DNA from: Ferrimonas kyonanensis DSM 18153
GTDB taxonomy: Bacteria; Pseudomonadota; Gammaproteobacteria; Enterobacterales; Shewanellaceae
Reading direction: 5' to 3'
Assembly: GCF_000425405.1 (NCBI RefSeq)
Contig: NZ_AUDJ01000002.1
Coordinates: 310,001-374,000, forward strand
DNA: 64,000 nucleotides
Below the pieces are notes generated by a model, which worked only from the letters and a program-made list of their open reading frames with translations, searched no databases and was not told where the DNA came from. The position numbers and the translations under genes were made by a program. This document shows positions 28,341-60,245 of the stretch, piece after piece; the stretch's first letter is position 1, and each line of letters starts with the position of its first letter.

Positions 28341-31300
28341 ATGTCTGGAACTGCAGGTGACGATATTTTGATTGGCACTGACGACGCCGATAACCTCGAC
28401 GGTGCGCAGGGCGACGATCACATTAGCGGACTGGCCGGTGACGACTATCTGCTGGGGCACGATGGCAGCGATGAGATAGACGGTGCCGGGGGAGACGACG
28501 TCATTATCGGTGATGCCGGTGAACAGCAGCCTGCGGCGGATCCGCAACAGGCCCCAGGCGATGGCAGTTGGGCCCAGGGAGCGCCGATAGTGACGTTGGC
28601 GGCCGGTGACGACGGAATGGGAAAAGATGAGCGTGGCAACGCCCAGGTCATGGTGCCAATCCAGTTGCAACCGGGCACCGACCGTTACCACCTGCAACTG
28701 GAGGCCGCCGGGGCCCAAGGGGCAACCATAGAGATAGTGTTGTTGGCGGCCGATGGCAGCGAGATCTACAACAGCGGCCCGGTGCCGGTGGGCGCCGATA
28801 CCGATGCCTACTTGATGACGTTGGATCCGGCACTGTTGCCCGCCGATGGTGACGTCACCCTGGCGGTGAATGTGCTGCAAGGGGAAGGGGTCAGTATTGC
28901 CGGCTTGTCTCTGACTGGCGAGGGGCAGTGGGATGACACCATCGATGCCGGTGCCGGTGATGATGTGGTCTTCGGTCAACAGGGCAACGATCACATCCTC
29001 GGCGGAGAGGGGGATGACATGCTCGACGGCGGCGGCAATGACGACCGTCTCGATGGCGGTGCCGGTGACGACGTGTTGCTTGGGGGCTACGGCAATGATG
29101 TGCTCATTGGCGGTGAAGGTGCCGACCAGCTGCTGGGGGCCGACGGCGACGATAGCCTGTATGGCGGAGAGGGTGACGATCTGTTGATGGGCGAGCTTGG
29201 GGATGATCATCTCGAAGGTGGCGCTGGAAAAGACACTCTTATCGGAGACGATGGTCGCGATCACCTTGATGGTGGCAGTGGCGATGATCAGCTGTTTGCC
29301 GGCAAGGGGGATGACTGGGTCAGTGGCGGTGATGGCAACGATCTGATCACCGGCGATGAGGGCGATGATCTGTTGCTGGGCGGGGCGGGTGACGATGAGA
29401 TCATCGCCGGTCAGGGACAGGATACCGTTTCCGGAGGAGACGGGGACGACCGCCTCTACGGTCATGGCGGTGATGATCAGCTCAGTGGTGGTGACGGCAA
29501 TGACCTGCTAACTGGCGACGAAGGCAATGACAGCCTCTCGGGGGATGGCGGCGATGACCTACTGGTAGGCGGGCTGGGGCAGGATGCATTGTCCGGTGGC
29601 AGCGGCAACGACCGCCTGTACGGCGGCGACGGAGACGATCAGCTGCATGGTGGCGACGGTGATGATGAGTTGCATGGCAACAGTGGCGCTGATGTCCTGA
29701 TCGCCGGCGCCGGTCATGATGCGGTGTATGGCGGCCAGGGTGATGACACCGTTTCTGCCGGAGACGGTGATGATCTGGTGGTGACCGACGAGGGAGATGA
29801 CGTTGTCGATGCCGGTGACGGCGACGATGTGGTTTTCAGTGGTGACGGTAATGATGAAGTGGTTGCCGGCAGTGGCGACGATGAGATTCACACCAACCAA
29901 GGCCAGGATCGCATTCAAGGGGGAAGTGGCAACGACCGCATCTTTGCCGGCGAAGACAATGATGTGGTCGATGCCGGAGACGGTGATGATCTGGTGTACG
30001 CCGGCAGTGGTGCCGACGTGGTGATGGCGGGCAGCGGCAACGATACGGTGTTTGCCGAGCAGGGAGACGATGTCATTGATGCCGGCAGTGGCGATGACGC
30101 CGTGTTCGCCGGTGATGGTAACGATGTGATTCAGGCCGGAGACGGCGATGACTACGTGGAGGCCGGCGATGGCCACGATACGGTCAGTCTGGGAGAGGGG
30201 CACAATACCGCCTTTGCCGGTGACGGCGATGATCGGCTGACCGCTGGGGCCGGAAACGATGTGGTGTTCGGTGGCGGTGGCGACGATCAGATTAGCCTGG
30301 GGAGTGGCGATAACTTTGCCGACGGCGGCAGTGGCGACGACCGGGTTGTGGCTGGCAGTGGCAATGATGTGCTGCTTGGGGGAGATGGCGATGATCACCT
30401 GGAAGGGGGCGCCGGCGAAGACATTCTGGTGGGGGGCGAAGGTGATGACACCCTCATCGGCGGCGATGACCGCAGTGAACTCTATGGTGATGGCGGTGCC
30501 GATACCTTGATTGGCGGTCTGGCCGATGATGTTTTGGGTGGGGGCAGCGGTGATGACCTGATTGTTGCTGGTGCAGGGAATGACACCGTCTATGCCGGTT
30601 CCGGCAATGACCATGTTGACGCCGGAAGTGGCGATGACACCGTCTATGCGGAAGCTGGAGTGAATCACATTGAGGCCGGGGACGGTGACGATCGCATCTT
30701 TGGCGGCAGCGGCAGCGATACCCTGATTGGCGGTCAGGGTGATGATACCTTGTCCGGAGCCGGCGGTGCCGATGAGCTGCAAGGAGGCGACGGCAACGAT
30801 GCTCTCGACGGCGGGGCACAGAACGACCGTCTGTTTGGTGGTGGCGGAGACGATCAGCTATTGGCAGGAGAAGGAGACGATCTGCTGGAAGGGGGAGAAG
30901 GTGACGATGTGCTTATTGGCGGTGCGGGCACCGATACTCTGCTCGGTGGCAGTGGCGTAGACCTGCTGGCCGGGGGGGATGGCGACGATTATCTTGATGG
31001 CGGCAATGAAGGCGGCCAGCTTCACGGCGAAGCCGGTAACGACATGCTGGTGGGCGGCGAGGGTGAGGATCTGATCACCGGCGGTGACGGTGACGATACC
31101 TTATTGGGCGGTGCCGGTAATGACGTGCTTTACGCCGGCAGTGGCAATGATCAACTGGCTGCCGGTAGTGGCGATGACGTCATCTACGGCGAGGCCGGTC
31201 ACAACCAGATCGATGCCGGTGCGGGCGATGACCAGGTGTTCGGGGGCACCGGCAGCGACACTGTCAGTGGTGGACAGGGGGATGATCTGCTGTTGGGCGG

Positions 31301-33731
31301 TGTCGGCCAGGATTACCTCAGCGGTGATGAGGGCGACGACAAACTCGATGGCGGTGACGACGACGACCAGTTGCTAGGCGGACTGGGCAACGATGAACTT
31401 CTCGGCGGGGCCGGTAACGATCAGTTGGACGGCGGTGACGGGGATGATCTGCTGGTCGGCGGTCAGGGGGACGACCACCTTGTGGGTGGACTCGGGCGGG
31501 ATCAGCTGTATGGTGGTGAAGGGGACGATACCCTGATCGATACCGACACCTCGGCACAACTCTATGGTGACCAGGGCGATGACAGCCTGATTTCCGGCGA
31601 CTTTGACGATCACCTCTACGCCGGAACTGGCCACGATAGCGTCGATGCCGGCGGGGGCCATGACGTAGTGTTTGCCGGTGACGGCAATGATTCTGTGACC
31701 GCCGGAGCCGGTGACGATCTGGTGTTCGCCGGCGCGGGTAACGACACGGTCTCCGGCGGTGACGGGGACGACACCCTGTACGGAGAGTCGGGCAGCAACA
31801 GCCTAAGCGGAGATGCCGGCGATGATCTGATCTATGGCGGCATTGGCGCCGACACCCTCAGCGGCGGCAGCGGCGATGATCAGTTGTTTGGCGGCGACGG
31901 CGACGACTCGCTGTCCGGCGGCAGTGGTGCGGACTTGTTGATTGGCGGCAGTGGCGACGATGAGCTGCGGGGTGACGGTGGAGACGATGTGTTGCTCGGT
32001 GAGAGCGGCGATGACCACCTTATGGGCGGTGACGGCAACGATTATCTTCAGGGTGACGGTGGCCAGGATCGGCTTGAAGGCGGCCAGGGCAATGATCACC
32101 TCAAAGCCGGAGAGGGGGATGACACCTTGTTAGGCCAAGAGGGCGATGACCTGCTGGAGGGGCAAAGTGGCAATGATCACCTGTCCGGTGGTGATGGCGA
32201 TGACGTGCTGATGGGAGGCAGTGGTCACGATAGCCTTGATGGCGGCGATGGCGGCGACCTTCTGCAGGGGGGCGAGGGTGACAACAGTCTGGATGGCGGT
32301 GACGGAGATGACATTCTGGTCGCCGGTGCTGGCGCCGATACCTTGCTGGGCGGAGCGGGTGATGATCAGCTGGAGTCAGGGTTGGGAGACGATCAACTCG
32401 ATGGGGGCGAAGGTAATGACAGCCTGGTGGCCAGTGGCGGCAATAACCTGCTGCTTGGCGGGGCGGGGAGTGACCAGTTGCTGGCTGGTGATGGCGACGA
32501 TCGGCTTTACGGTGGCCAGGACAACGACACCCTGCAGGCTGGCGAAGGGCAAAACCGCTTGTTTGGCGAGCAGGGTAACGACAGCCTGACCAGTGGCAGT
32601 GGTAATGACTTCCTCGATGGCGGCGACGGTGACGATCTGCTCAATGCCGGCGCCGGTGATGACGAGCTCTATGGCATGGCCGGCAATGATCAGCTGACGG
32701 CCGGAGCTGGGCGGGATCAGCTGTACGGCGGTGACGGCGACGATCGGCTGAGTGGCGGCAGTGATGACGACAGCTTAAGTGGAGATTCCGGCAACGATAC
32801 CCTTAAAGGCGAGGCTGGCAACGACGTGCTGTTTGGTGGCCTGGGGAACGACAGCCTCGATGGCGGCAGTGGTGATGACCAGCTCTTTGGCGGTGCCGGG
32901 CAGGATACCTTGAAAGGCGGTTCCGGCCACGACCAATTGCACGGCGGCGAGGGTGATGACAGCCTCTATGGTCAGGGAGGCGATGATGCCCTGTTTGGAG
33001 ACGCCGGTGCCGATACCTTAAAAGGCGGCAGTGGCAGCGACAGCCTGTCTGGGGGCGACGGGGACGATCGCCTCGACGGTGGCAGCGGCTCCGACAGTCT
33101 GTTTGCCGGAGAGGGGGACGACGATTTGGCCGGCGGAGACGGTGAAGACCAGTTATTTGGCGAGCAGGGCAACGACAGCCTGGACGGAGGCGCCGGTGCC
33201 GATCGTCTGTTTGGTGGCGAAGGGGATGACCGCATTCGGTTTGATGCCGATGACCTGATTGGCGGAGAAACGGTGATCGCTGGCGGCGAGGGTTTTGACG
33301 TGCTGACCGCCGGAGGCAACAGCGGCATCATCGATATGACCGGTGGCGACATCGTTGGCATGGAAGCCCTGATTATCGATGAGGGGGTGCCGGATACCGA
33401 CGTGAAAATTGCGCTGTCGAAAATCCTGGCGGAAGAGGTCGGAGGCAGTGGTAACGAGGCTCTGGAGGATTGCTTCCTGTGTGTGGGGGCAGAGCAACTC
33501 AGCATCGATGGTGAAGGCTGGAGTTTCGATTCGGCGTTGACATCGTCGCAGATGGATGCCGGTGTGCTGGCTCGATACCAGGCAGAAGGGGTCGATATCT
33601 CGGATCTTAAAGGGTATCAGTTTACCAACGCCAACAACGAAGTGGTGACCATCTGGACCGATGCCGAACTGGACGAGCTGAGCTTTAACGATGCCAGCCT
33701 GGTTGAAGAGGATCCGGATCTGGCCGGTTGA
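28341..33731 (+). CDS. Giant RTX calcium-binding protein, type I secretion substrate
   Basis: A 1796-residue, very acidic Gly/Asp-rich protein. Residues 1-62 already carry RTX-type repeats ([19 protein letters not shown]). Residues about 63-192 form a non-repeat, beta-rich domain. Residues about 193-1630 are nearly uninterrupted GGxGxDxLx nonapeptides, about 160 units by length. The last 165 residues lack repeats and end [11 protein letters not shown], the expected place for the uncleaved type I secretion signal. No protease, lipase, adenylate cyclase or adhesin domain is visible, so a calcium-folded surface layer or matrix role is my inference. The secretion ATPase and adaptor lie immediately upstream. 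Confidence 0.93.
28920..33240 (+). repeat. RTX nonapeptide repeat array within the giant protein
   Basis: About 4.3 kb of 27-base units encoding GGxGxDxLx. The DNA is biased toward GGC, GGT, GAT and GAC, which also produces long spurious frames on the opposite strand. Confidence 0.9.
30480..32099 (+). repeat. Three 540-base higher-order units inside the RTX array
   Basis: Landmark segments with a broken nonapeptide (SELYGD, GQLHGE and AQLYGD) have their Leu codon at 30480, 31020 and 31560, exactly 540 bases (20 nonapeptides, 180 residues) apart. Units 1 and 2 also align internally in register: the seventh nonapeptide is VYAEAGVNH in one and IYGEAGHNQ in the other, followed by matching AG-GDD and FGG-GSDT units. 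Unit 3 has drifted by two nonapeptides. Confidence 0.8.
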
Positions 33732-49414: not shown

Positions 49415-50524
49415 TCAGGCCGCCTGGGTCAGGAACAGCTTGGCCAGTTCGGCGTCCGCCAGCACGCCTTTTAGGGCCGGCTGACCACAGCTCATCAGAT
49501 CTTGCATCAGCCCCAGGCGCAGGTCATTGGGTAGGAGTGGCATCTTCAAAAATGCCTGAATGTTGCCGATGGCGGTTTTGTTGATGGGCTGTTGGCCCAG
49601 CTTCAAGTAATGGTGCAGGCGGGTGCACAGGGTCGCCAGAATGTCGATGCGAGGTACCGCGCCGCCGGCGACCCGCTCGATCCTGGCGGCCACCTCCTTG
49701 TCAAAGTCACCGGAGCTGACAATGGTTTGAGGCGATACCAGTTTGCTCAGGTTTTGCTCGACAAAGGCAATGAAAGCCCCACAGGTGGTGTCATCCAGGC
49801 AGGAGCGCGCCAGAATGTTGATCAGCGGCAGTTGCTGCTTGAGGTCGTCGATGGCGGCAATGGCCTGGAAGAACTGCACCAGAGACCGCGGGGTAGTGCG
49901 CTCGCCGTCCACCAGTTCCGGGTAGGTCAGCACAAAATCGATGCCTCGGGGGTCGATACCGGCCTGCTCGGCCCACAGTGCCCAGGCTTTGACGTCGAAC
50001 TCCATGGTGATGTGCATCATCCGAGTCAGCATGGCATCGTCCATGGGGGTGACCGAATAGTCGCCACCATCCGGGTTGGCCGTCAGGACGATTTGCCAGC
50101 CTTTGGGCAGCGCCCAGCTGATGAGTTCGTGATTTTGCAGCAGCTGCATGATGCCGCGAAGAATGCGCTCGTCGGCGCGGTTGACATCATCGATCAACAA
50201 AATGCCCGGGCCCGGCTCGGTGGGCACCCAGTGAGGGGCGGCGAAGTGGGTGACGTTGTTACCGTCTTCATCCTGGCTGATCTGGGGCATGCCCAACAGG
50301 TCGCCCATCTCCTCAAATTGGGCCGGTGCAATGGCACGCCAGTGCATTCCCTGCTCGCGGGCAATCTGCTCCACCATCTGGGTTTTACCAATGCCGTGTC
50401 GTCCCCAGATGCATACCGGCACACTGTGGTGATCGGCACCGGGCAGCAGATGTTCAATAAACTGGCGGACTTCCTGGGCCTGGCAGGTCAGGCCGTAGTA
50501 GGTGTAGTTATGGGATTGTGTCAT
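49415..50524 (-). CDS. MoxR-type AAA ATPase
   Basis: A 369-residue AAA+ protein of the MoxR/AAA_5 group. Walker A is GRHGIGKT (residues about 41-48), Walker B GILLIDDVNRADE, and sensor 1 VLTANPD; an arginine finger candidate lies in AMLTRMMH. MoxR proteins act with von Willebrand A partners as chaperones or complex remodelers. Its partner VWA gene is 10 bases upstream in the same operon. Divergent from the pair is an operon with two large leucine-rich/BRCT proteins, possible clients of this ATPase. Confidence 0.9.
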   Translation of the reverse strand: MTQSHNYTYYGLTCQAQEVRQFIEHLLPGADHHSVPVCIWGRHGIGKTQMVEQIAREQGMHWRAIAPAQFEEMGDLLGMPQISQDEDGNNVTHFAAPHWVPTEPGPGILLIDDVNRADERILRGIMQLLQNHELISWALPKGWQIVLTANPDGGDYSVTPMDDAMLTRMMHITMEFDVKAWALWAEQAGIDPRGIDFVLTYPELVDGERTTPRSLVQFFQAIAAIDDLKQQLPLINILARSCLDDTTCGAFIAFVEQNLSKLVSPQTIVSSGDFDKEVAARIERVAGGAVPRIDILATLCTRLHHYLKLGQQPINKTAIGNIQAFLKMPLLPNDLRLGLMQDLMSCGQPALKGVLADAELAKLFLTQAA

Positions 50525-50534
50525 CGGATACTCG

Positions 50535-51725
50535 TTATCGATGTGGGTCTGTGGCCATGGGGATCACCCGGCCACAGTGACTGAGAGAGTGAGCGTTGTC
50601 GACGCTGCGAAGGCCGTGAATCAACCACAGCAGCGGCGCCCGGGGACGTACCTCGGGGGCGGGGGCTTCGCCGTCGGTAAAGTAGATGGTGGCATCGACC
50701 CGCAGTCGGTTGGCGGTGTCGATGGCCGCGTTGAAGTCGGTACCTCCTCGGCCTACGACGGCCTCAGGGGGCTTGCCCTGGTAGGCGTACTGGCGATTGA
50801 TCTTGGTGTCGCACTCGACCACGGTCAACTGGGCACCAGCTCGCCAGATATGATGCATCTCCTCAAAAAAGATCTGCAGCTGTTGATCATCGACGCTGGC
50901 GGAGGTATCTACAGCCACCAGAATGTGCTGATGGGGCTGGATCTTGGTGCCCGGGGTGGTGCCGTACCGTTTCGATGGCCGCCTGAGAGTATTTTTGACA
51001 AAGGTGCGCTGGGCACTGGCGGCGAACAAGCGCAGCAGGCGACGCCAGTTGACCACCGGACGCCGCCGGCTCAGGGCCTCTTCGACCGCCGCCAGCACCA
51101 TGGCCGGTAACAACCCTCGCGATTGGGCGTTACTCACCTCAGTTCGCTGTGCGCTTTGCAGTAGTTTGGACTCCAACTGCTGCCGGACCAGGGACTGCTG
51201 TGCCTGTGACTGGGTGCTCAGACGGTTCCAGCTGCCATGCCCCTGTCCTGACTGACCGACTCCGGGACACTGGGGCTGCTGTGAGCTGGGCGGCAGCGCC
51301 TGATAGTAATAATCAAGCTCCCGGTTGGCCTCCAGGGACGCGCGTCCCAGGGCTTCGAGCCAGTGATTGACCGCGGCCAGGGAGACAGCATCTGGCGCCA
51401 ACTGCTCGGCACTCAGGTACTGGTTGACCACCAGATCCGCCGCCAGGTCAAAGCGGGCTGAGTCGCTGTAAGCGCTGCGGAGAAAAACGTGGCCCAGAAC
51501 CAGATGCAATGCTTCATGCTTCAGGGCACCGAGTGCCAGGTCGTCACTCAGCGTCTGCCACTGTTGATGGCAGTAGCTAATCTGAATATCACTGTTTCCT
51601 ATTGGTTTTATTTCAAGCAGCGGCGGGTTTGTGTCGCTGTGTTGCTGAGTGGCCTTGTGAAAGCTGCTCAAGTAATGGCCATAGAAAGGCTCTTTGAGCA
51701 TTAACTTGACTAAGGTTCGTGACAA
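50535..51725 (-). CDS. DUF2201 metallopeptidase-like/VWA protein, partner of the MoxR ATPase
   Basis: A 396-residue protein with two domains. Residues 1-130 hold the DUF2201 putative peptidase motif HEALHLVLGH (HExxH plus a further His). Residues about 265-390 are a VWA domain with MIDAS residues in VAVDTSASVDD, GRGGTDF and YFTDGE. Between them is a Gln/Ser-rich linker. The start is uncertain: a TTG at 51725 (MSRTLVKLMLKEP) restores the usual N-terminal helix, while an ATG at 51701 is also possible; neither has a clear ribosome site. It forms a MoxR/VWA pair with the gene 10 bases downstream. Confidence 0.85.
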   Translation of the reverse strand: MSRTLVKLMLKEPFYGHYLSSFHKATQQHSDTNPPLLEIKPIGNSDIQISYCHQQWQTLSDDLALGALKHEALHLVLGHVFLRSAYSDSARFDLAADLVVNQYLSAEQLAPDAVSLAAVNHWLEALGRASLEANRELDYYYQALPPSSQQPQCPGVGQSGQGHGSWNRLSTQSQAQQSLVRQQLESKLLQSAQRTEVSNAQSRGLLPAMVLAAVEEALSRRRPVVNWRRLLRLFAASAQRTFVKNTLRRPSKRYGTTPGTKIQPHQHILVAVDTSASVDDQQLQIFFEEMHHIWRAGAQLTVVECDTKINRQYAYQGKPPEAVVGRGGTDFNAAIDTANRLRVDATIYFTDGEAPAPEVRPRAPLLWLIHGLRSVDNAHSLSHCGRVIPMATDPHR

Positions 51726-52106
51726 AGTGGGGTTGTTTATGGGTTCATACCGTTTAACTATATGATTTAGGTGAAATTATCCATACAATGCCTCCGTGGT
51801 CAATCCACTCTGTGTTGTTAATGTCAGGAGCAGTACGTTGAGTCAGTTAGTGTTGAATGATTTTGACGTGATCCCTTGCCTTCCGCTCTGGTTGTGCCCG
51901 GTAACGATGTCACCTTCCCCCCTTTGGGCCTCGGAGCCGCGATGTCGCGATTCCGCCACTGTGTGTCGGTGTTGGTCATCCATAGGGACGTCGACGCGAC
52001 CGGCACACTAACCTCATGATCCGTTTTCTCGAGGCTGCCTGTCGTTAGGCTGCCCGTAGCTGCGTTGCCTGATCAGGCCGCAGTGACTATACCGCCAGGA
52101 GTTGCC
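51726..52106. other. Divergent intergenic region between the MoxR/VWA and LRR-BRCT operons
   Basis: About 380 bases holding promoters for both directions. I see no strong promoter or operator and no supported small gene. A short open frame at 51796-52011 lacks a ribosome site and family resemblance. Confidence 0.4.
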
Positions 52107-54911
52107 ATGCACGCCATGGAATTGGACGATTTTAATATTCAGGGGGCATTGGCCGGTATTCATGCCGACATCGAGTCCCTGACCTTTGACTGTGAAGAGC
52201 CCCTCGGCAGTTGGGCGGAATTGGCACGTGCCTTTCCCAATCTGCGTCGAATCCATTTCCAAGATTTGGGTAACGTCAACGGCCGCCGGCTGTTGGATGC
52301 GGATTTTTTTCAACACTTTCCTAACTTGGTTGAGCTTACCACGTCGCTTCGACCCCGGCGTTACATTACCGCCGATCTAACTGGCGTGATCGAAGATCAG
52401 TTGGCACAGATGACCACCTTGTCTCTGGCTCGGTGTCGACCGGACAATCTGCAGGTGCTGTGTGCCCTGCCTAAGCTGACCAAGCTGACCCTGCGAGTTG
52501 ATGCCACCAAGGTGAACTTCCACCTCAGTGCTGACTCGGCTCTGACCAACCTGGCATTGGGTTTGGGCAGTCGAGTGAGGCAACTGGATTGCGCGCTGTC
52601 TGACAGTCGTCTCACCAGCCTGACGCTGGGCAAACTGGATTACTACGATGATCAGGGCGAGCCGGTGGCCATTGGTACCCTGTCGTTGCCTGACACTCTG
52701 GACTCTCTGACACTGGACATGCTGTGTCAGGGATCGCTACCGTCGCCACTATTGGTTGGCAATCGCTCTATGGCATCGGTGACCATCAAGCCGGGCAAGG
52801 TTGATCTGCCGCCGCAGTTATTGGGGGCGCTGACAGAGGTGGACCAGTTTTCCCTGACTCTTAACGAAGAGACCGCGCCATTGCCTTCAAGCCTGTTCGC
52901 CGGATTGAAACGGGCCGATAAGATGGAACTGCGCTTTGAGAACACGCCAATTCCGGAGGCTCTGTTGCCCGACGGTTTGGAGATCAACGACCTGTTTTAC
53001 AGCAATGCCAATGGTGCGTTGGCCCAGGCCAATTGTTTGCGTCTTCCTAAGTTGAAGCAGGCCTGGATGTTTGGTTTAGATGGCGATCAACTGGAGTGGC
53101 TGGCTCACAGTCCGTCCCTGCAGGAGTTGAATGTTCAGCTAAGCGGTGAGCTCAGTCATTTTCCGCGACTGCCTGCGTTGACCAGGCTGACCCTCAGAGG
53201 GGGAGAGATGGCGGAGTTGCCCGAGGGCATACGTCACTGCGCTTCTCTGGAAACCCTGAACCTGTTGTCGGTCAGCCTGCCGCGTTTCGGTGACATGGCT
53301 GCCATGACTAAGTTGAGCAAAGTGTGGATTCAGCCCTGGCGACATGAGCAGGATAAACTGCCGCTGCAAAGCGATCTGCTCAGTGTACCGTCGCTTAGCG
53401 GCTTGCGACTGGATATTGAGTTAACCCGATTCGATCCCGCCTGGGTCGGGTTGCCTAAGGATCTGGAGCTGGACATCAGCGATGACAAATTGGCTATGGC
53501 CTGGGAGATCTTTAAACAGTCTCACCTCAGTGACGCAGAGACGCTGGACTATCTGACCACGCTGGCATCGGTTCGCAAACCGGCACAATTGCCAACCATG
53601 CCGGCCAATTTTCATCTGGTGATGATGGCGGCCAAACACAACCGCTTCAAGGCTCAGCACAAGGCCTGGTTGGCAGAGCTGGCCCAGAGCAATCATCAAC
53701 AGCGGCCTTTCGGGCCGGGTGCCACCTTGTTTGTCGCCGGTCGCAGCGGCTTCAAAGCCAGTGAGATCAGAGCCAAGGCCGAAGAGTTGGGCTTTAGCCT
53801 CAGTAAGAAACTGGATGACAGCGTCACCCATGTGTTGCTGGGCTCGGCACCTAAAGAGGTGCACCGAATCGACTTGCAGCGATTTGCGGTCATCGACGAT
53901 TCCGTGCTGCAACAGTGCTTTGAAGCCCGGGCGCCCAAGTTCCTTCAGCAAGGGGATCAGGCGATGGAGGGCAGTGTGCTGGAGATGCTGAGGTCGCCGG
54001 AAGAGGCATCCCATCAGGTTGCGGTACAGATGCTGGAGCAGGGCGGGGTGACCGAGGCGATGCGACTGCCGCTGTTCTTCATTCTTAAAACCACCACCGA
54101 CAATGGCTTCAGAAAACAGATCAAGCACCTGTTGGCCGGGATGGGCGATGAAGCGTTTCAGCTGGCGGTGAATGACCGCATTCTGTTCCATAACTGCCGT
54201 GGCCGCGATGAGTACGGTAACCTCAAGGGGCAGGGGGTGATGGTGGACAAGCTTAAGCGTCAGCGAAAGAAGTGGGGCCAACGCCTGTGCAACGAGTTTG
54301 CCAAGCTGTATTTCGACCGCTTTGGTGAAGGGTTGATGTTCGTGTTGATGCAAAAGGAAGCCAGTGAACAGCGGTTGGCCATTCTCGACAGTCTGGTGGA
54401 AGGAGAGTGCCTGAATTGGCGCCGTGGCGCCGGCTTCGACCAGATTCTCGAGTTCTGGGACAATGACTCGCAAATCAACCTGCATTGGCACCCGGGTTTC
54501 TATCTCAATGACAGCGGCTTGCTTGGGGCGGCCAAGACAGAACTCCCTGCCGAACTGGCCCAGCGGCACACCCTCAGTGAACTGAATCTCGGTAACTGCC
54601 TGCTGTCTGCCTTGCCGAAAGGAATGGAACACTTCCGCCATATTCGCCGCCTGAGTCTGACTAAAAACTGTCTGGAGACCCTGCCGGCCTCACTGGTGCT
54701 GTTTACCGAACTGGAGAGTCTGGACTTGTCCTACAACCACTTCCGAGAGTTTCCCAAGGTGCTGATGAAGATGACCTGGCTTAAGGCCCTGGACATTCGG
54801 CGCGCCTCGCGGCCGGATCTGGACGGCGATTACGGCGCAGGTTACCGCTCTCTGTCCGTGCCCCAGGCCTTTATTGATGCCTGCCCTAACTGCGACATAT
54901 TGCAGGATTGA
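52107..54911 (+). CDS. Leucine-rich repeat/BRCT protein A
   Basis: A 934-residue cytoplasmic protein. Residues about 1-480 contain irregular leucine-rich repeats (FPNLRRIHFQDLGNVNG). Residues about 533-605 form a BRCT domain (GATLFVAGRSGFKASEIRAK, then LDDSVTHVLLG). Residues about 625-810 are helical and well conserved with the paralogue (HQVAVQMLEQGGVTEAM). Residues about 822-895 are regular leucine-rich repeats (LESLDLSYNHFREFPKVL). BRCT domains bind phosphopeptides or DNA ends; LRRs bind proteins. The start at 52107 has AGGAG upstream. A paralogue of the same plan follows 33 bases later. Function unknown. Confidence 0.85.
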   Translation: MHAMELDDFNIQGALAGIHADIESLTFDCEEPLGSWAELARAFPNLRRIHFQDLGNVNGRRLLDADFFQHFPNLVELTTSLRPRRYITADLTGVIEDQLAQMTTLSLARCRPDNLQVLCALPKLTKLTLRVDATKVNFHLSADSALTNLALGLGSRVRQLDCALSDSRLTSLTLGKLDYYDDQGEPVAIGTLSLPDTLDSLTLDMLCQGSLPSPLLVGNRSMASVTIKPGKVDLPPQLLGALTEVDQFSLTLNEETAPLPSSLFAGLKRADKMELRFENTPIPEALLPDGLEINDLFYSNANGALAQANCLRLPKLKQAWMFGLDGDQLEWLAHSPSLQELNVQLSGELSHFPRLPALTRLTLRGGEMAELPEGIRHCASLETLNLLSVSLPRFGDMAAMTKLSKVWIQPWRHEQDKLPLQSDLLSVPSLSGLRLDIELTRFDPAWVGLPKDLELDISDDKLAMAWEIFKQSHLSDAETLDYLTTLASVRKPAQLPTMPANFHLVMMAAKHNRFKAQHKAWLAELAQSNHQQRPFGPGATLFVAGRSGFKASEIRAKAEELGFSLSKKLDDSVTHVLLGSAPKEVHRIDLQRFAVIDDSVLQQCFEARAPKFLQQGDQAMEGSVLEMLRSPEEASHQVAVQMLEQGGVTEAMRLPLFFILKTTTDNGFRKQIKHLLAGMGDEAFQLAVNDRILFHNCRGRDEYGNLKGQGVMVDKLKRQRKKWGQRLCNEFAKLYFDRFGEGLMFVLMQKEASEQRLAILDSLVEGECLNWRRGAGFDQILEFWDNDSQINLHWHPGFYLNDSGLLGAAKTELPAELAQRHTLSELNLGNCLLSALPKGMEHFRHIRRLSLTKNCLETLPASLVLFTELESLDLSYNHFREFPKVLMKMTWLKALDIRRASRPDLDGDYGAGYRSLSVPQAFIDACPNCDILQD

Positions 54912-54944
54912 TGCAGCCCCCAGATTGAATAGGATTGTTAAACA

Positions 54945-57791
54945 ATGAGTAAGTTATCCCTGCACGATTACGACATCGATCAGTTGCAACAGGTGCACCA
55001 GGATGTGACGGTTCTCCGATACCGACTGGATGAGCAACTGCCCGACTGGGCCGATTTGGGGCGGGCATTTCCCGCTGTGGAGGAGATTCAGTTCGGCAGT
55101 TATTTGGAGACGGTGCGACCCATCGATACCGAGTTGCTGCGCCATTTTCCCAATTTGAAGCGCTTGTACTGTCAGGACAACCCGTTGCAGCTGCAGGGGG
55201 TGGAGTCCTCAATGGTGACCAACCTACGGGTCATTCAAGGCGCCAGGGTGGAAGACCCGGCCCAGTTTAGCCTGTTGAGCCGCTGCCACGACTTACTGAA
55301 GCTGCACCTGGAGGTGCCCAGGGTGCCGGTGGTGTTTGAACTGCATGCCGACAGCCGCCTGAAACAGCTCCATCTGCGGGTCGAGAACAACGGCCGTTTG
55401 GCACTGAATCTGGCTGGTGCCGCTCAGTTGACGGAGTTGTGCATCGGCCCGTTGAACTACGGCGACGATGCTGACCCGTTGACGGTGGAGCAACTGCTGT
55501 TGCCGAATTCGGTAAAAAAGGTGTCGTTATCTCCCAGTGGCCCGCTGCAGTTTTGTCATTGTATCGACGCGGGACAGGCCAATTTGGACGAGCTTCGCGT
55601 TGAAGCGAGAGAGCTTAGGGTTGCCCCTGGTGGCCTCGCTCGTGCCGTTGCCATTGGCGATCTTCATGTCAATGTCGGTCAACAGGCCGAGCAAGTACCC
55701 GACGACCTGTTCTGTGGGGTGGGCAGTGTGGGGCAACTGATGTTTCTGCCCCAGGACGCCAACTTTCACCTGGCCCGGTTGCTGGCGCCCATTTCCGGAG
55801 TCCGTTCCCTGTACCTGTTTTCCAAGGGAAATGGCGAGATTGGCGAGCTGAATCTGCCGAACCTGACCCATCTCTATGCCACCCAGGCGTCGCTGTCTCA
55901 GCTGGGTGGCCTGCGTCACTCAACGGCGCTTGAACACCTTGATCTTCGTGATGTAGGCCCACTGGGTGACGGGGCATTGCTGGCCGCGCTTCCTCAGTTA
56001 ACCCGTCTGCAGTTAGAAGGCGTTGTGGGCGACGAATTGCCTCAGAGCCTGCGAGCCCACCAGGGCTTGACTCGGCTGGCGCTGCACAACAGCCCGTTGC
56101 AGCGTCTGGGCGATCTCAGTGGCATGAGCGCACTGACCCAGGTGGAGATCGAGCAGTACAGTTACCACGGCCCCTGCACGACCCTGCCTCAGGTGGATGA
56201 TCTGCTTACGCTGCCGGCATTGGCACAGCTGCGGCTGAGATTGACCCCTCAACCCGGCGATGACGCCGGCATCTTGATGCAGTTGCCTGAGCAGGTCGAA
56301 CTGACGTTTAGCATCTACGACCACGTGGCCCGCTCGGAGCAACTGAACAAGCAGCGCACCATCTTGTTGCAGGCGCCCCTGACTCAGGCTCAGAAACAGG
56401 CCTACTGGCAGGTGCTCTATCATGCGCCCAAGCCGCGAGATCTGCCGCAGATGGAAGGCCGGTTCCACCTGACATTTCTGGAAGCCAAATACAGTGCCTT
56501 TAAGAAGGCGGCCCATGCGTGGCTGCGGCACAATGCCCAGCAGGCGATTCTGCAGCGTCCTTTGAGCAAGGAGACGGTGCTGTTTGTGTGTGGAAAGAGT
56601 GGTATCAAGGTCAGTGAACTCAAGGCCAAGGCCACGGAGCTGGGGTTTACCATCAGCAAGAAACTGGATGACGGCGTCACCCATGTGCTGCTGGGGGCCA
56701 ATCCCAAGCAGACCCAGCTGCTGGATCCTGACCGGCATCTGATTATCGACGATACCGCACTGACTCAATGGTTCGAACAGTCGGCGCCGCAGTTTCTGCA
56801 GCAGCCACAGGCGGTCGACAGTGGCATGATCGACACCGTTATGACCATGCTCAACTCTCCCGATGAAGCCTCTCACCAGGTGGCGGTGGAGATGCTGGCC
56901 CAGGGCGGCGTTACCGAAGCGATGCAGATGCCACTGTTCCTGATTCTGAAGACCACCAGTGACAAGGCATTGCGCAAAGCCATTCAGCAACTGCTGGCGG
57001 GCAAGGGCGATGAGCTGTTCCAGTTGGCCGTTGGCGACCGAGTGTTCTTCGAGGCCGACTTGCGCGGCCTGGATTACGAGGGCCACCCCAAGGGCGAAGG
57101 CCCGATGTTCAAAAAAATAAAGGGGCTGACCAAGCGTTGGGGCCGAGAGTTGTGCATCGATTTTTCCAAGGCCTATTTCGACCGGTTTGGCGAGGGACTT
57201 ATCTGGTTGCTGACCCAGAAAGAGGAGTGCTGTCGCCGCCGTGCCATTACCCAGGAGTTTGTGGAGGGGCAAACCCTCAATTGGCACAAAGGCTGCGGTT
57301 TTGGCCTGGTGCTGGCAGGGGCCGACGAAGAGCGGCTTACCAACTGCCATGGTTCGCCAGAAATTTACATGCAGCACCAGTTCGAACTGGGTAAGCCCAA
57401 GACCCGGTTGCCTGAAGGCCTGCCTACCGAGACTCTGATCACCGAGCTGGATCTGCACAACTGTTATCTGGCGGCATTGCCGGCCAACTTTGAACGCTAT
57501 CTGCAAGTGAAAAAACTTAACTTACAGTTTAACCACTTGACGAAACTGCCGCCCAAGCTGGCCAGCCTCACTGAGCTCGAGGAGTTGGATCTCTCTTTCA
57601 ATCATTTTGAAGAGTTTCCTAAAGTGCTGTTTAAGATGAAAAACTTAAAGAGGCTGGATCTTCGCCGTGGGTCTGAGCCCTTGTATCGCTGGGGCTATGA
57701 CACCGATAACGGCTATGAGCCGTTGCGGGCCCCGCAGAGCTTCCGTGAAGCCTTGCCTGACTGCGAAATTCTGGAAGACGAATCATGCTGA
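54945..57791 (+). CDS. Leucine-rich repeat/BRCT protein B (tandem paralogue)
   Basis: A 948-residue protein with the same domain order as protein A: irregular LRRs (about 1-490), BRCT domain (about 540-612, VLFVCGKSGIKVSELKAKA, then LDDGVTHVLLG), helical region with HQVAVEMLAQGGVTEAM, and C-terminal LRRs (about 830-905, LEELDLSFNHFEEFPKVL). The N-terminal halves have diverged much more than the BRCT and helical parts, which suggests that they recognise different partners. The two genes arose by duplication. Its stop overlaps the start of the lipoprotein gene. The MoxR/VWA pair is divergent from this operon. Confidence 0.85.
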   Translation: MSKLSLHDYDIDQLQQVHQDVTVLRYRLDEQLPDWADLGRAFPAVEEIQFGSYLETVRPIDTELLRHFPNLKRLYCQDNPLQLQGVESSMVTNLRVIQGARVEDPAQFSLLSRCHDLLKLHLEVPRVPVVFELHADSRLKQLHLRVENNGRLALNLAGAAQLTELCIGPLNYGDDADPLTVEQLLLPNSVKKVSLSPSGPLQFCHCIDAGQANLDELRVEARELRVAPGGLARAVAIGDLHVNVGQQAEQVPDDLFCGVGSVGQLMFLPQDANFHLARLLAPISGVRSLYLFSKGNGEIGELNLPNLTHLYATQASLSQLGGLRHSTALEHLDLRDVGPLGDGALLAALPQLTRLQLEGVVGDELPQSLRAHQGLTRLALHNSPLQRLGDLSGMSALTQVEIEQYSYHGPCTTLPQVDDLLTLPALAQLRLRLTPQPGDDAGILMQLPEQVELTFSIYDHVARSEQLNKQRTILLQAPLTQAQKQAYWQVLYHAPKPRDLPQMEGRFHLTFLEAKYSAFKKAAHAWLRHNAQQAILQRPLSKETVLFVCGKSGIKVSELKAKATELGFTISKKLDDGVTHVLLGANPKQTQLLDPDRHLIIDDTALTQWFEQSAPQFLQQPQAVDSGMIDTVMTMLNSPDEASHQVAVEMLAQGGVTEAMQMPLFLILKTTSDKALRKAIQQLLAGKGDELFQLAVGDRVFFEADLRGLDYEGHPKGEGPMFKKIKGLTKRWGRELCIDFSKAYFDRFGEGLIWLLTQKEECCRRRAITQEFVEGQTLNWHKGCGFGLVLAGADEERLTNCHGSPEIYMQHQFELGKPKTRLPEGLPTETLITELDLHNCYLAALPANFERYLQVKKLNLQFNHLTKLPPKLASLTELEELDLSFNHFEEFPKVLFKMKNLKRLDLRRGSEPLYRWGYDTDNGYEPLRAPQSFREALPDCEILEDESC

Positions 57792-58633
57792 GACTCGGCA
57801 TCACGCTTACCGTGACTTTGATGGCCTTGGCTCTGGGGGGCTGCACCGTTTTTGGGCCTGGTCGCGATGAGCAGCAGATCCTGGTGCTGCTGGGCCAGCT
57901 CAATCTGTGTCAGTACGACCAGGCGGAACGTAAGCGGATGTATGATGCCGCCAGAATGGGCAACAAGACGCCATACCCCTTGTTGTATTGCGAAGGGGAA
58001 CGCAGTGCCCGTTTTGATGCCCGCTTTCTCGACAGTCGCAAACACACTGGCTTTGAGGTACTGGGCAGTCATTTTGAAGCGGATGGCTATGGCGCGGCCC
58101 TGATAAAGATTCGCACCCCGGCCTGGCGACGGGAGTGCGAAGCGCTGGGACAATGGGATTCGCAACAATGCGAGGCGATGGTGATGGGCATTAATGCCCC
58201 CCAGCTGAAGAAAGTCGATAAGTTTGAGCGGCTGCGGATCTGGCATCGTCAGGATCAATTGGCGCAAGTGGGCAAACCGGAAATGATGGTGGACTACTTC
58301 TTGATGCCGTTGAAGCGAGACAGCGGCGGACAACTGCGTCCTAATTGGGTTGAGAACGGTGGCGCTGCCCGGGCCAGCCTGGGCCTGGCCGAGCGTGTTG
58401 GAGAGGCCGTGGAGCCGCTACCGGTCCAGTATTACGACAAACAGTATGATTTGCTGGCGCAGGACGCATTACCTCAACACTACATGGGGGTGTTCTTCTA
58501 TGCCACGCCGCAGTTGTTGGATTACGTGGCACGTCCAGAGCCAGCCTACAGTTTTCCCCTGAGAAAAGGGGTATCCAGCCCGGGTTACCGGGTCAGCATC
58601 TATCGAGCCGTAAAAGGAAAGAGAGAGTTTTGA
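57785..58633 (+). CDS. Lipoprotein of unknown function, coupled to LRR-BRCT B
   Basis: A 282-residue lipoprotein with signal MLRLGITLTVTLMALALGGC (lipobox LGGC, Cys20). The mature chain has no recognisable domain but shows Cys pairs (LNLCQYD, LLYCEGE, RRECEALG, QQCEAM) that may form disulfides in the periplasm. The ATG lies inside the last codons of the upstream LRR-BRCT gene and the TGA overlaps the start of the next gene (TGATG), so all three are translationally coupled. Confidence 0.72.
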   Translation: MLRLGITLTVTLMALALGGCTVFGPGRDEQQILVLLGQLNLCQYDQAERKRMYDAARMGNKTPYPLLYCEGERSARFDARFLDSRKHTGFEVLGSHFEADGYGAALIKIRTPAWRRECEALGQWDSQQCEAMVMGINAPQLKKVDKFERLRIWHRQDQLAQVGKPEMMVDYFLMPLKRDSGGQLRPNWVENGGAARASLGLAERVGEAVEPLPVQYYDKQYDLLAQDALPQHYMGVFFYATPQLLDYVARPEPAYSFPLRKGVSSPGYRVSIYRAVKGKREF

Positions 58634-59445
58634 TGAAACCGACACTATTGTTGTCAGCGCTGTTACTTAGCGGCAGTGCGCTGGCCGGTAACGATTGCAC
58701 CGGTAACGATGTTTGGGTGTTTGAGAATGACACCAATAAGTTCGGTGGCGGCACCTTTGGCAACTGCGGCGCTTATCCGGCGGATGAGTCATTGCGGGTG
58801 GTCACCTATACCTCCTGGGCGGATGGAGAGATGGGGCAGCGCCACCTGATTTGGCGGGTGTTGTTGACTAAGGCCGACAAGCCAGACGTGGTCGCTTCGG
58901 CCACCCTGAACCTGTGGGAAGGGCCCAACATGGTGCTGCGGGAAGAGGTAGAGGAACCGTTGTTTTTCGTCGATAAAGCCAACTACCCCCTGAATGCCAG
59001 CACCAATGCCTTTGCCGTCCGTGCCGACCTTGGTCCCGACTCTTACTGTCGCGACGTCAGTCGCGATCAGTTTGTCACTCTGTTTGTTCGTGATGGCAGC
59101 CAGCTCAAGCCAGTGCTAAAGCACCTGCCTTTGAAGCAAAGCCTGGTGGTCGAGGGCAGCCCTTGCAGCCGCTATGACTACAGCAAAACCGCTCGGGGAG
59201 AAGGTCGCTTGACTCTGTTGGACACCGTAACCAACGGCTATCGCGATCTCAAATTCACCACTACTGCGGTCTATGAAAGTTACGATGAGCTGTCTCAGCA
59301 ACAGGTGGATGAAACCGACCCCGGCCAGTGGGAGGCTTCGTTTAAGCCCGAGACCCGCCAGTTTGACACCACCCTTAAGTTTGATGGTCACCGTTACCCG
59401 GTTGAGTGGCAGCAACTTCCTTCAAAAGAGTGGTGGCAGCAATGA
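58633..59445 (+). CDS. Exported protein, paralogue 1 of a tandem pair
   Basis: A 270-residue exported protein with signal peptide MKPTLLLSALLLSGSALAG. The mature part contains WADGEMGQRHLIWRVLL, FFVDKANYPLNASTNAFAVR and QFVTLFVRDGSQLKP, all with counterparts in the next gene. The family is not known to me. Paired cysteines suggest disulfides. The start overlaps the lipoprotein stop (TGATG). It belongs to the same operon as the LRR-BRCT genes, but whether it shares their function is unknown. Confidence 0.72.
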   Translation: MKPTLLLSALLLSGSALAGNDCTGNDVWVFENDTNKFGGGTFGNCGAYPADESLRVVTYTSWADGEMGQRHLIWRVLLTKADKPDVVASATLNLWEGPNMVLREEVEEPLFFVDKANYPLNASTNAFAVRADLGPDSYCRDVSRDQFVTLFVRDGSQLKPVLKHLPLKQSLVVEGSPCSRYDYSKTARGEGRLTLLDTVTNGYRDLKFTTTAVYESYDELSQQQVDETDPGQWEASFKPETRQFDTTLKFDGHRYPVEWQQLPSKEWWQQ

Positions 59446-59465
59446 CAATGATGAAAGGAGTCCGG

Positions 59466-60245
59466 ATGAACAAACCCTTGATAACCCTGGCCGCAGGCCT
59501 GACGCTGGCCTCTCCCTTGGTCATGGCGGCTCAAACCTGTACTCCGCAACAGTATGAGATGCTGGAGGAAGATAAGCAGTTGTTTGGGCCGTTGTCGTCG
59601 CCGGTGTGTAAGGCGTTGCCGAATCGTCCGGAGTTGACCCTGGCGTCCTACTTCGTCTGGACCGATGGCGGCCGGGTCGGGGAGCGCAGCTACCAGTGGC
59701 ACACGGTGATGATGGACAGTGACTCCAACACCGTGCTGGCCAGGCACCGGCAGGAGATTTCTGAAGACGCCTACACCAAAGTACGCCCCGACAGCATCTG
59801 GCTGGATACGGCCAACTATGCGTTGAACGATCAGGTGCGCGCCTTTGGTGTCCGGCTGAACATCGGCCGAAAGCCGGAGTGTGCCAAGGAGTATCGAGGT
59901 CAGTTTTTTAACCTGTTTGTCTATCAGAACCATATCCTGACGCCACTGCTGGAGAATCTGCCTATGGCGTATTCCCGAGTACACGATGGCAAGGATTGCG
60001 GGGACAAACAGCGCTGGGACAAAGAGGTGGGCAAGTCGCAACTGCAGATGCTGCCCAGCAAGCACTACGGGTTTGCCGACATCAAGGTAAAAACCAAGGG
60101 CAAAATGTACTATGAGCCCATCACCCGTCAGAGGGACAAATCCCGCAGCCACGGCTACATCCTGAAGTACGATGGCGAACGCTATCGCTTTGATCCGTCT
60201 TCTCTGCCCGGCCATCGCTGGAGGGATTCTAAGGCTTTCTATTAG
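59466..60245 (+). CDS. Exported protein, paralogue 2 of a tandem pair
   Basis: A 259-residue exported protein with signal peptide MNKPLITLAAGLTLASPLVMA. Segments VWTDGGRVGERSYQWHTVMM, IWLDTANYALNDQVRAFGVR and QFFNLFVYQNHILTP align with the preceding gene product, showing duplication. An AAAGGAGTCCGG ribosome site supports the start at 59466; an in-frame region upstream would only add residues before the signal peptide. Two hairpins follow, ending the operon. Confidence 0.72.
   Translation: MNKPLITLAAGLTLASPLVMAAQTCTPQQYEMLEEDKQLFGPLSSPVCKALPNRPELTLASYFVWTDGGRVGERSYQWHTVMMDSDSNTVLARHRQEISEDAYTKVRPDSIWLDTANYALNDQVRAFGVRLNIGRKPECAKEYRGQFFNLFVYQNHILTPLLENLPMAYSRVHDGKDCGDKQRWDKEVGKSQLQMLPSKHYGFADIKVKTKGKMYYEPITRQRDKSRSHGYILKYDGERYRFDPSSLPGHRWRDSKAFY

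Follow-up and report, generated by a model that had tools for sequence, protein, structure and literature searches.

Closest described systems and the locus studied here

Pairs of a MoxR-type AAA+ ATPase and a VWA-domain protein are generally thought to work by the VWA partner binding a client peptide and the ATPase ring remodelling that client (PMC7159879, PMC3893208). Ternary systems centred on such pairs have been described in the classes VMAP, iSTAND, FtsH and beta-propeller (Kaur et al. 2020, PMC7159879), and a pair whose vWA protein bears an N-terminal metallopeptidase has been reported from jumbo phages, where a role in virion assembly was proposed (PMC7824862). MoxR-vWA ternary systems as a kind and the jumbo-phage pair are therefore known. 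Here we describe a four-gene locus of Ferrimonas kyonanensis DSM 18153, in which a MoxR ATPase and a DUF2201-VWA protein are encoded divergently from two large proteins made of leucine-rich repeats (LRR), a BRCT domain and a helical region, and this type of third component was not found in the literature that we searched. The locus lies in a stretch of 64,000 nucleotides (contig NZ_AUDJ01000002.1, positions 310,001 to 374,000 of the forward strand), which we call the window and from whose first letter all coordinates are counted. LB is used as shorthand for the LRR-BRCT-helical-LRR family, with LB1 and LB2 as its two members here, and VWA for the DUF2201 protein with a VWA domain.

As far as the ternary systems are described in the part of PMC7159879 available to us, the Ferrimonas locus resembles them in joining a MoxR AAA+ protein, a vWA protein and a conserved dedicated third gene in a conserved neighbourhood. 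It differs in that its third component is, as far as Pfam shows, LRR-BRCT-helical, and in that its vWA protein has an N-terminal DUF2201 domain and no variable C-terminal effector. The available text of PMC7159879 never mentions BRCT and has LRR once, in the reference list; the main text of neither PMC7824862 nor PMC12839542 contains BRCT. The jumbo-phage pair has the same pair architecture, and phage pairs are the closest relatives that we found. However, no third component is named in the accessible text of PMC7824862 (BRCT, LRR and leucine-rich are absent), and the phages with an LB-like third protein described below are uncultured. RavA-ViaA of E. coli, likened here by description, shares the two-gene logic of a MoxR and VWA chaperone, but the available portion of PMC3893208 describes it without an LRR-BRCT partner. 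Within open-licence literature we found no paper pairing MoxR with BRCT, MoxR with BRCT and LRR, DUF2201 with MoxR, or a WGR domain with MoxR; BRCT, LRR and conflict systems are named together in PMC3710099, at listing level only.

An earlier note on this DNA, made from the sequence alone, had compared the locus to the E. coli yeh locus (YehI-YehL-YehM-YehP-YehQ), where genes for AAA and VWA proteins likewise lie close to that of a large protein. BLASTP detected no similarity between MoxR and YehL, VWA and YehP, or LB2 and YehI, and kinship was rejected on these three comparisons (BLASTP only).

A MoxR and DUF2201-VWA pair is encoded divergently from two LRR-BRCT proteins

The leftward part of the locus comprises the genes for MoxR (49415..50524, minus strand, 369 residues) and VWA (50535..51725, minus strand, 396 residues). 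The AAA (GRHGIGKT) and VWA (DTSAS, HEALH) pair that the earlier note had read here was recovered as open reading frames (ORFs) at these positions, with all three motifs in place. MoxR, with Walker A GRHGIGKT and Walker B LLIDDVNRAD, matches the Pfam family AAA_5 (25.1 bits, cut-off 22), lies beside the VWA gene, and is 80-84% identical to its counterparts in four other Ferrimonas. VWA matches DUF2201 (PF09967/PF13203) with 64.4 bits and DUF2201_N with 53.3 bits (cut-offs 26.4 and 23.2). Its N-terminal DUF2201 domain is a putative metallopeptidase with a HExxH-type site (HEALH...H...D..AAD), and the VWA domain, with the metal ion-dependent adhesion site (MIDAS) DTSAS, is C-terminal. No C-terminal effector domain was found by Pfam, the VWA match ending at residue 374 of 396. 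Among the LB-type pairs examined, Walker B reads LLIDDVNRAD in 12/12 MoxR proteins, while MIDAS is kept in 12/12 and HExxH in 11/12 VWA proteins. The twelfth VWA protein, from genome G784 (L117:14520-15812), has a degenerate DUF2201 metal motif (QQALH, AAE) with an intact MIDAS.

Across a divergent intergenic region of 381 bp (51726..52106) lie the rightward genes for LB1 (52107..54911, plus strand, 934 residues) and LB2 (54945..57791, plus strand, 948 residues). These had been described as two paralogues of about 940 residues with the order LRR, BRCT, helical region, LRR, which is borne out by the ORFs, by Pfam and by a model of LB2. The LB1 frame is open from TTG 52065 (948 residues), and alignment favours ATG 52107, which is probably the true start. 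LRR_8 and LRR_4 score above the Pfam cut-off in both proteins, and BRCT barely so (21.9 bits in LB1 and 23.1 in LB2, cut-off 21.3); the BRCT match of LB1 covers 53724..53894 on the plus strand (ORF residues 554-610 counted from TTG 52065). The AlphaFold model of LB2 (mean predicted local distance difference test score, pLDDT, 87.2; predicted template modelling score, pTM, 0.59) consists of an N-terminal LRR arm to about residue 460 (54945..56324), variable across the family in sequence and length, then helices, a BRCT-like unit of beta-alpha-beta-beta-beta-alpha order at residues 545-613 (56577..56783), further helices at 621-808, and a C-terminal LRR at residues 826-948 (57420..57788), all on the plus strand. 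The second helical part contains a segment that we call the SPD motif (residues 622-660, 56808..56924, plus strand), with MLNSPDEASHQVAVEML, to which the third protein of the phage module discussed below aligns.

Over 17 scanned LB members, LRR models match all (17/17) and BRCT matches 16/17 at E<=0.01. Compared with the PDB, the top three of the 7 sequences listed for the LB BRCT are TopBP1-type BRCT domains (best E 0.0049). Structure searches in which the LB2 model was used in full return LRR proteins; as they barely probe the helical and BRCT parts, the absence of other matches is uninformative. Pfam found no AAA or beta-propeller match in the LB proteins. To our knowledge, the presence of LRR and BRCT within one bacterial protein is unusual.

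The four genes are inherited as one unit

The earlier note had proposed that the four genes belong together and that conserved linkage in other genomes would support this. In 40 genomes (the own genome and relatives, 14 of them of the genus), full-length LB is present in 6, and precisely these 6 also have VWA; one of them, F. sediminum (G005), has a VWA fragment only. Five further genomes gave LRR-only matches, which we did not take for LB. The family to which Vibrio sp. LaRot3 belongs has LB in 7/247 genomes and LB-type VWA in the same 7, with fragments of both in G892. Wider searches found LB in 2/394 genomes of the order, both Ferrimonas, and, among 369 genomes of the class, in the own genome only, besides a weak match in G582 that was set aside (15.8 bits over 60 residues).

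After merging places that carried two ids, there are 16 LB loci in 14 genomes, of which 12 are intact and divergent with MoxR-VWA, 2 are degraded with remnants of partner genes, and 2 are orphan. The divergent layout was found again in Ferrimonas, Vibrio and Photobacterium with differing flanks, as the note had suggested checking. LB copies number 1-3 per locus; by our reading, LB1 and LB2 stand together at 9/12 intact loci, a single LB occurs at G916 and in Photobacterium aquae, and G784 has two LB genes of another type. The four genes are thus one inherited unit.

Two copies are decaying: in G892 (L118:7340-9696) fragments of VWA and LB lie next to a full-length MoxR gene, and F. sediminum (L031/L039) retains LB1 at full length but no more than a remnant of VWA. 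The linked locus of P. aquae (G414; L097:8127-12801) has MoxR-VWA and one short LB of 690 residues. In the same species, two orphan LB loci (L120/L121), one with a single ORF of 982 residues and the other with a pair of 933 and 831, have no MoxR-VWA beside them. This layout looks as if one motor served several LB proteins.

The earlier note had also stated that wide occurrence of LB genes without the pair, and of the pair without LB, would point to chance adjacency. Such separation was not seen for the LB-type VWA subfamily in the sets of 40 and 247 genomes. It was seen for distant MoxR-DUF2201 pairs, which are common without LB (some DUF2201 match occurs in 111/369 class genomes, the own included, the best other scoring 103.8 bits vs 774.8 for the own), and for the two orphan loci of P. 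aquae.

The unit has been transferred between species

The MoxR, VWA, LB1 and LB2 copies of F. aestuarii are 98.4%, 91.8%, 93.3% and 92.6% identical, respectively, to those of Vibrio sp. LaRot3, while pnp of these two genomes is 74% identical. Three Vibrio (sp. LaRot3, V. neptunius and V. intestinalis) have the unit between two genes that we take, by their sequence, to be rpsO and pnp. The gap between them, measured between alignment ends, is about 8.95 kb in these three unit-bearing Vibrio vs about 232-429 bp in 10 uninterrupted genomes, three of which (G000, G002, G916) have the unit at another site; G796 (pnp split) and locus L126 (short of rpsO) were excluded. Because of this insertion and the 91.8-98.4% identity of the copies against 74% for pnp, we conclude that the four genes moved horizontally together. 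Units of Photobacterium lie at other sites, and P. aquae and G784 have a third site in common, which we read as prmA-dusB-fis. The G+C content of the unit is above that of its flanks at 4/5 Vibrio or Photobacterium-type loci measured (0.517 vs 0.452 in LaRot3) and slightly lower than that of the flanks in P. aquae.

The MoxR-VWA pair shares ancestry with a pair of uncultured tailed phages

A point that the earlier note had missed is that the closest kin of the pair found so far are phage proteins. In PHROGs, VWA matches phrog_1314 with 165.5 bits and MoxR matches phrog_1297 with 141.5 bits. The tag that PHROGs gives to the VWA family, 'HNH endonuclease', seems to be a misannotation. Viral contigs scanned with the VWA alignment yielded 242 relatives, and the following counts cover the best 80 of these 242 (IMG/VR contigs, L154-L233), which are 27-34% identical to VWA. 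A MoxR match is present at 76/80 loci, on the same strand as VWA in all 76. Scores at the phage loci are 209-274 bits for VWA and 37-233 for MoxR, while the gammaproteobacterial pairs compared reach at most about 105 and about 78.

In both the VWA and the MoxR tree the LB-type pair is sister to the pair of uncultured tailed phages with an ultrafast bootstrap (UFBoot) support of 100. A Moorella phage and a Pontibacillus megaplasmid join at the branch after that, supported by 93 and 94 in the two trees. These trees contain 17 of the 67 phage loci with both genes full-length and, of the 19 gammaproteobacterial loci, 8 for VWA and 7 for MoxR. The sampling of cellular DUF2201 proteins covers Gammaproteobacteria and plasmids, so that closer cellular kin may exist in another phylum. 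As judged from these trees, the LB-type pair and the phage pair share ancestry.

The widespread gammaproteobacterial MoxR-DUF2201 pair consists of the same two adjacent families, with HEALH at 19/19 and MIDAS at 18/19 loci by pattern. Unlike the LB-type pair, it has no LB or SPD-type neighbour; it forms a separate clade (UFBoot 100), and its Walker B reads LFLDE in 18/19 loci vs LLIDD. On one 168-kb phage contig (L161) a gene for the terminase large subunit lies about 3.7 kb from VWA. Phage modules, made up of MoxR, DUF2201-VWA and one or two proteins of the BRCT-like/SPD-helical kind, are found, for example, at L161:3225-7140, L158:5586-9828 and L173:5574-11265, with primase or terminase genes near in the loci checked. 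LB itself had no match among phage records, and one viral-contig scan with LB was likewise empty; on plasmids it gave 4 records, all LRR-only and covering 9-10% of the query.

A third protein of the phage module resembles the LB centre

The phage pair is adjoined by proteins of two size classes, 354-463 and 100-155 residues, with a motif like that of the LB centre. The LB centre matches the larger family with a profile E of 1.1e-4 over 39 columns (hhalign probability 56%) and the smaller one with 3e-5 over 48 columns (73%). The larger-family protein is present at 59/80 phage loci and either family at 78/80, as counted with profile hidden Markov models (A8/A9) derived from the same 80 loci. As the third family was first spotted by its motif pattern, pattern counts are biased, and motif-free clustering served as a control: when 30 clusters of phage neighbours were compared with LB, the top three were the third-component families (39.3, 35.4 and 32.9). 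The 24 unlabelled neighbour families had a mean of 15.4 (standard deviation 3.0, maximum 20.3), and a small family ranked fifth with 21.5.

A PDB search (E up to 5) with only the N-terminal segment of the larger family returned four sequences, all PARP1 (best E 0.0069), in a region that we take to be the BRCT domain. LB and the phage protein have the segment order in common, BRCT and then the SPD helix, and the spacer is longer in the phage protein. In 31 other DUF2201 loci (1882 ORFs) no third-component protein was found at E<=1, and a search of 50,697 phage records with one larger third-component protein gave no match. Pfam detected no LRR arm in the phage third proteins; we saw such arms in the bacterial form alone. 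Taken together, there is moderate evidence that the phage third protein is homologous to the core of LB.

The N-terminal arm is the variable part of LB

Across the LB family the N-terminal arm is 184 to about 474 residues long, while the centre measures 352-377 residues in 26/27 sequences and the C-terminal part 94-130. The two longest arms (498 and 503), probably due to ORF starts extended upstream, were set apart, and FG013_2, a merged hit spanning 759 residues, was excluded. The N-arm outpaces the centre in 14/15 comparisons among close pairs. The ratio omega, calculated by the Nei-Gojobori method for eight genome pairs with the regions delimited at fixed fractions of length, is 0.11-0.30 for the N-arm, 0.05-0.24 for the centre and 0.024-0.088 for MoxR, the lowest of the four genes. 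Positive selection on the LRR arm was not seen, all parts being under purifying selection. In a tree of the centre, presented without branch supports, the LB1 and LB2 proteins of Ferrimonas, Vibrio and Photobacterium form two clades, so the duplication seems older than the spread; the tree also holds a third clade and a form with a single gene (linked locus of P. aquae, G784).

Proposed mechanism and alternative explanations

We consider it on balance probable that the four genes form a ternary MoxR-VWA remodelling machine with LB as its adaptor or sensor, and that its core has common ancestry with the phage module. Complex formation, the adaptor role of LB and all function are what we infer. 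MoxR would be the ring-forming AAA+ motor and VWA its cochaperone, providing a client grip through its VWA domain and, usually, an intact metallopeptidase-like site. LB1 and LB2 would act as a dedicated adaptor or sensor pair of this motor. The SPD-BRCT core, which the host and phage forms share, may be what motor and cochaperone engage, the helical SPD segment serving as a handle and the neighbouring BRCT docking the complex on DNA or protein; the long LRR arm, as the variable part, may select the target. Both assignments are drawn from the anatomy of the proteins. Upon ATP hydrolysis the bound complex would be remodelled or stripped, or handed to the peptidase site. Bacteria would carry the LRR-armed form as a compact mobile unit, in many cases with two LB genes, and phages the MoxR, VWA and BRCT-helical core.

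As for its use, a part in conflicts with phages or with mobile DNA of other kinds seems the likeliest one, and it is favoured because the distribution is patchy, mobile and sometimes decaying and because of the kinship with a phage module; we propose it only tentatively because there is neither a match to a defence model nor a signal of selection. A narrower version, in which this is a two-form MoxR-VWA-BRCT machine whose bacterial form, of the same ancestry as the phage form, gained LRR recognition arms and is an anti-phage guard, LB sensing, or mimicking and intercepting, the phage partner of the sister machine and the motor dismantling the bound phage complex, is speculative and appears to us fairly unlikely.

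Several observations weigh against parts of these proposals. The usual phosphopeptide pocket of BRCT has S/T at the end of strand 1, but this position is C, A or S across 27 LB sequences, which bears on phosphopeptide binding and not on the fold. Since HExxH was lost in one lineage (QQALH, G784), peptidase activity is not obligatory and the peptidase-like site may be dispensable, and the structural model of VWA, which beyond the VWA domain is of low quality (mean pLDDT 51.8), is too poor for the peptidase part. As the genomes searched are relatives of one another, the counts of concordance do not represent independent events. As the omega of the N-arm is only 0.11-0.30, there is no arms-race signal, and with PADLOC 2023 at E<=0.1 none of the four proteins matched a defence model, the sole hit being MoxR (E 0.03) over its P-loop stretch. 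A defence island was not apparent on reading the gene lists, no defence-family scan of neighbouring genes having been made. On the phage side, the alignments to the LB centre span just 39-48 columns at hhalign probabilities of 56-73%. The MoxR family ranked fourth in the control clustering (28.7), far above background. The N-terminal segment of the larger family aligns with the LB BRCT with P 0.0015 at a low hhalign probability of 16.5%, and of 16 phage members Pfam matches a single one to BRCT_2 (E 0.014) and a single one to BRCT (E 0.041), some unrelated families scoring better in individual members.

One alternative is that LB1 and LB2 are clients, namely scaffold subunits assembled by MoxR-VWA as a housekeeping-type maturation chaperone with a role in stress or metabolism, as RavA-ViaA and CoxD-CoxE are for enzymes. 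Known MoxR-VWA pairs, as described in the part of PMC3893208 available, mature dedicated complexes, and the co-occurrence of LB1 and LB2 at 9/12 intact loci as well as the purifying selection on all parts would suit such a role. However, the unit is patchy (7/247), mobile and decaying at 2/16 loci, and no recurrent enzyme gene lies beside it, just a lipoprotein gene in Ferrimonas, which makes this explanation fairly unlikely. It could also be that a phage module for virion assembly or processing was domesticated, so that the unit descends from a phage chaperone-peptidase and still works on virion-like proteins or interferes with the assembly of phages. The sister position of the phage pair, the mostly phage nature of the next tree branches, the terminase gene about 3.7 kb from VWA in L161 and the virion-assembly role proposed for the jumbo-phage MoxR-vWA-metallopeptidase in the available text of PMC7824862 all agree with this. 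Still, the host unit has no recognised structural gene, and the phage and host groups are sisters and not nested, which fits either direction of transfer; we regard domestication as improbable. Finally, distant MoxR-DUF2201 pairs without LB and the two orphan LB loci might suggest chance adjacency of the pair and the LRR-BRCT genes. This has practically no likelihood left, being ruled out by the full concordance in the 40 and 247 genomes, the same divergent order at different sites and the transfer as a unit.

The locus adds a clearly delimited, mobile MoxR-VWA system with a type of third component absent from the literature searched. It also ties the unit to a phage module of which the MoxR-VWA half is published, the partner not being found in the available text of PMC7824862. 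The role of phage MoxR-VWA-metallopeptidase pairs, and the way in which a third protein directs a MoxR-VWA motor, thereby become approachable, and the LB family supplies natural length variants of the recognition arm.

Neighbouring genes and other observations

A scan for promoters in the divergent region gave a single sigma70-like match on the minus strand (51803-51776), which is not beyond chance (shuffles mean 0.5). Downstream of LB2, and overlapping it by 7 bp, lies the gene for a lipoprotein-like protein of 282 residues (57785..58633, plus strand), which we consider accessory and which adjoins the unit in Ferrimonas only. It is followed on the same strand by genes for two PA3715-family proteins (58630..60245), doubtful members of the unit; 58630-59445 scores 69.8 bits (cut-off 70) and 59406-60245 scores 150.7 bits, and genes of this family are also present at two other Ferrimonas loci. 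The lipoprotein and PA3715 genes were dropped as core parts, having no match at E<=1e-4 at the Vibrio/Photobacterium loci (L032, L034, L035, L037, L038, L117-L121).

Other MoxR-DUF2201 (or AAA-DUF2201) pairs were seen on a Sphaerotilus plasmid (L124) and a Rhodococcus plasmid (L125); close to them lie genes for a Sir2 deacetylase as well as a DUF262 protein, or else a RAMP gene associated with CRISPR. Elsewhere in the window, positions 28341-33731 encode a protein of 1796 residues with 53 matched RTX calcium-binding stretches.

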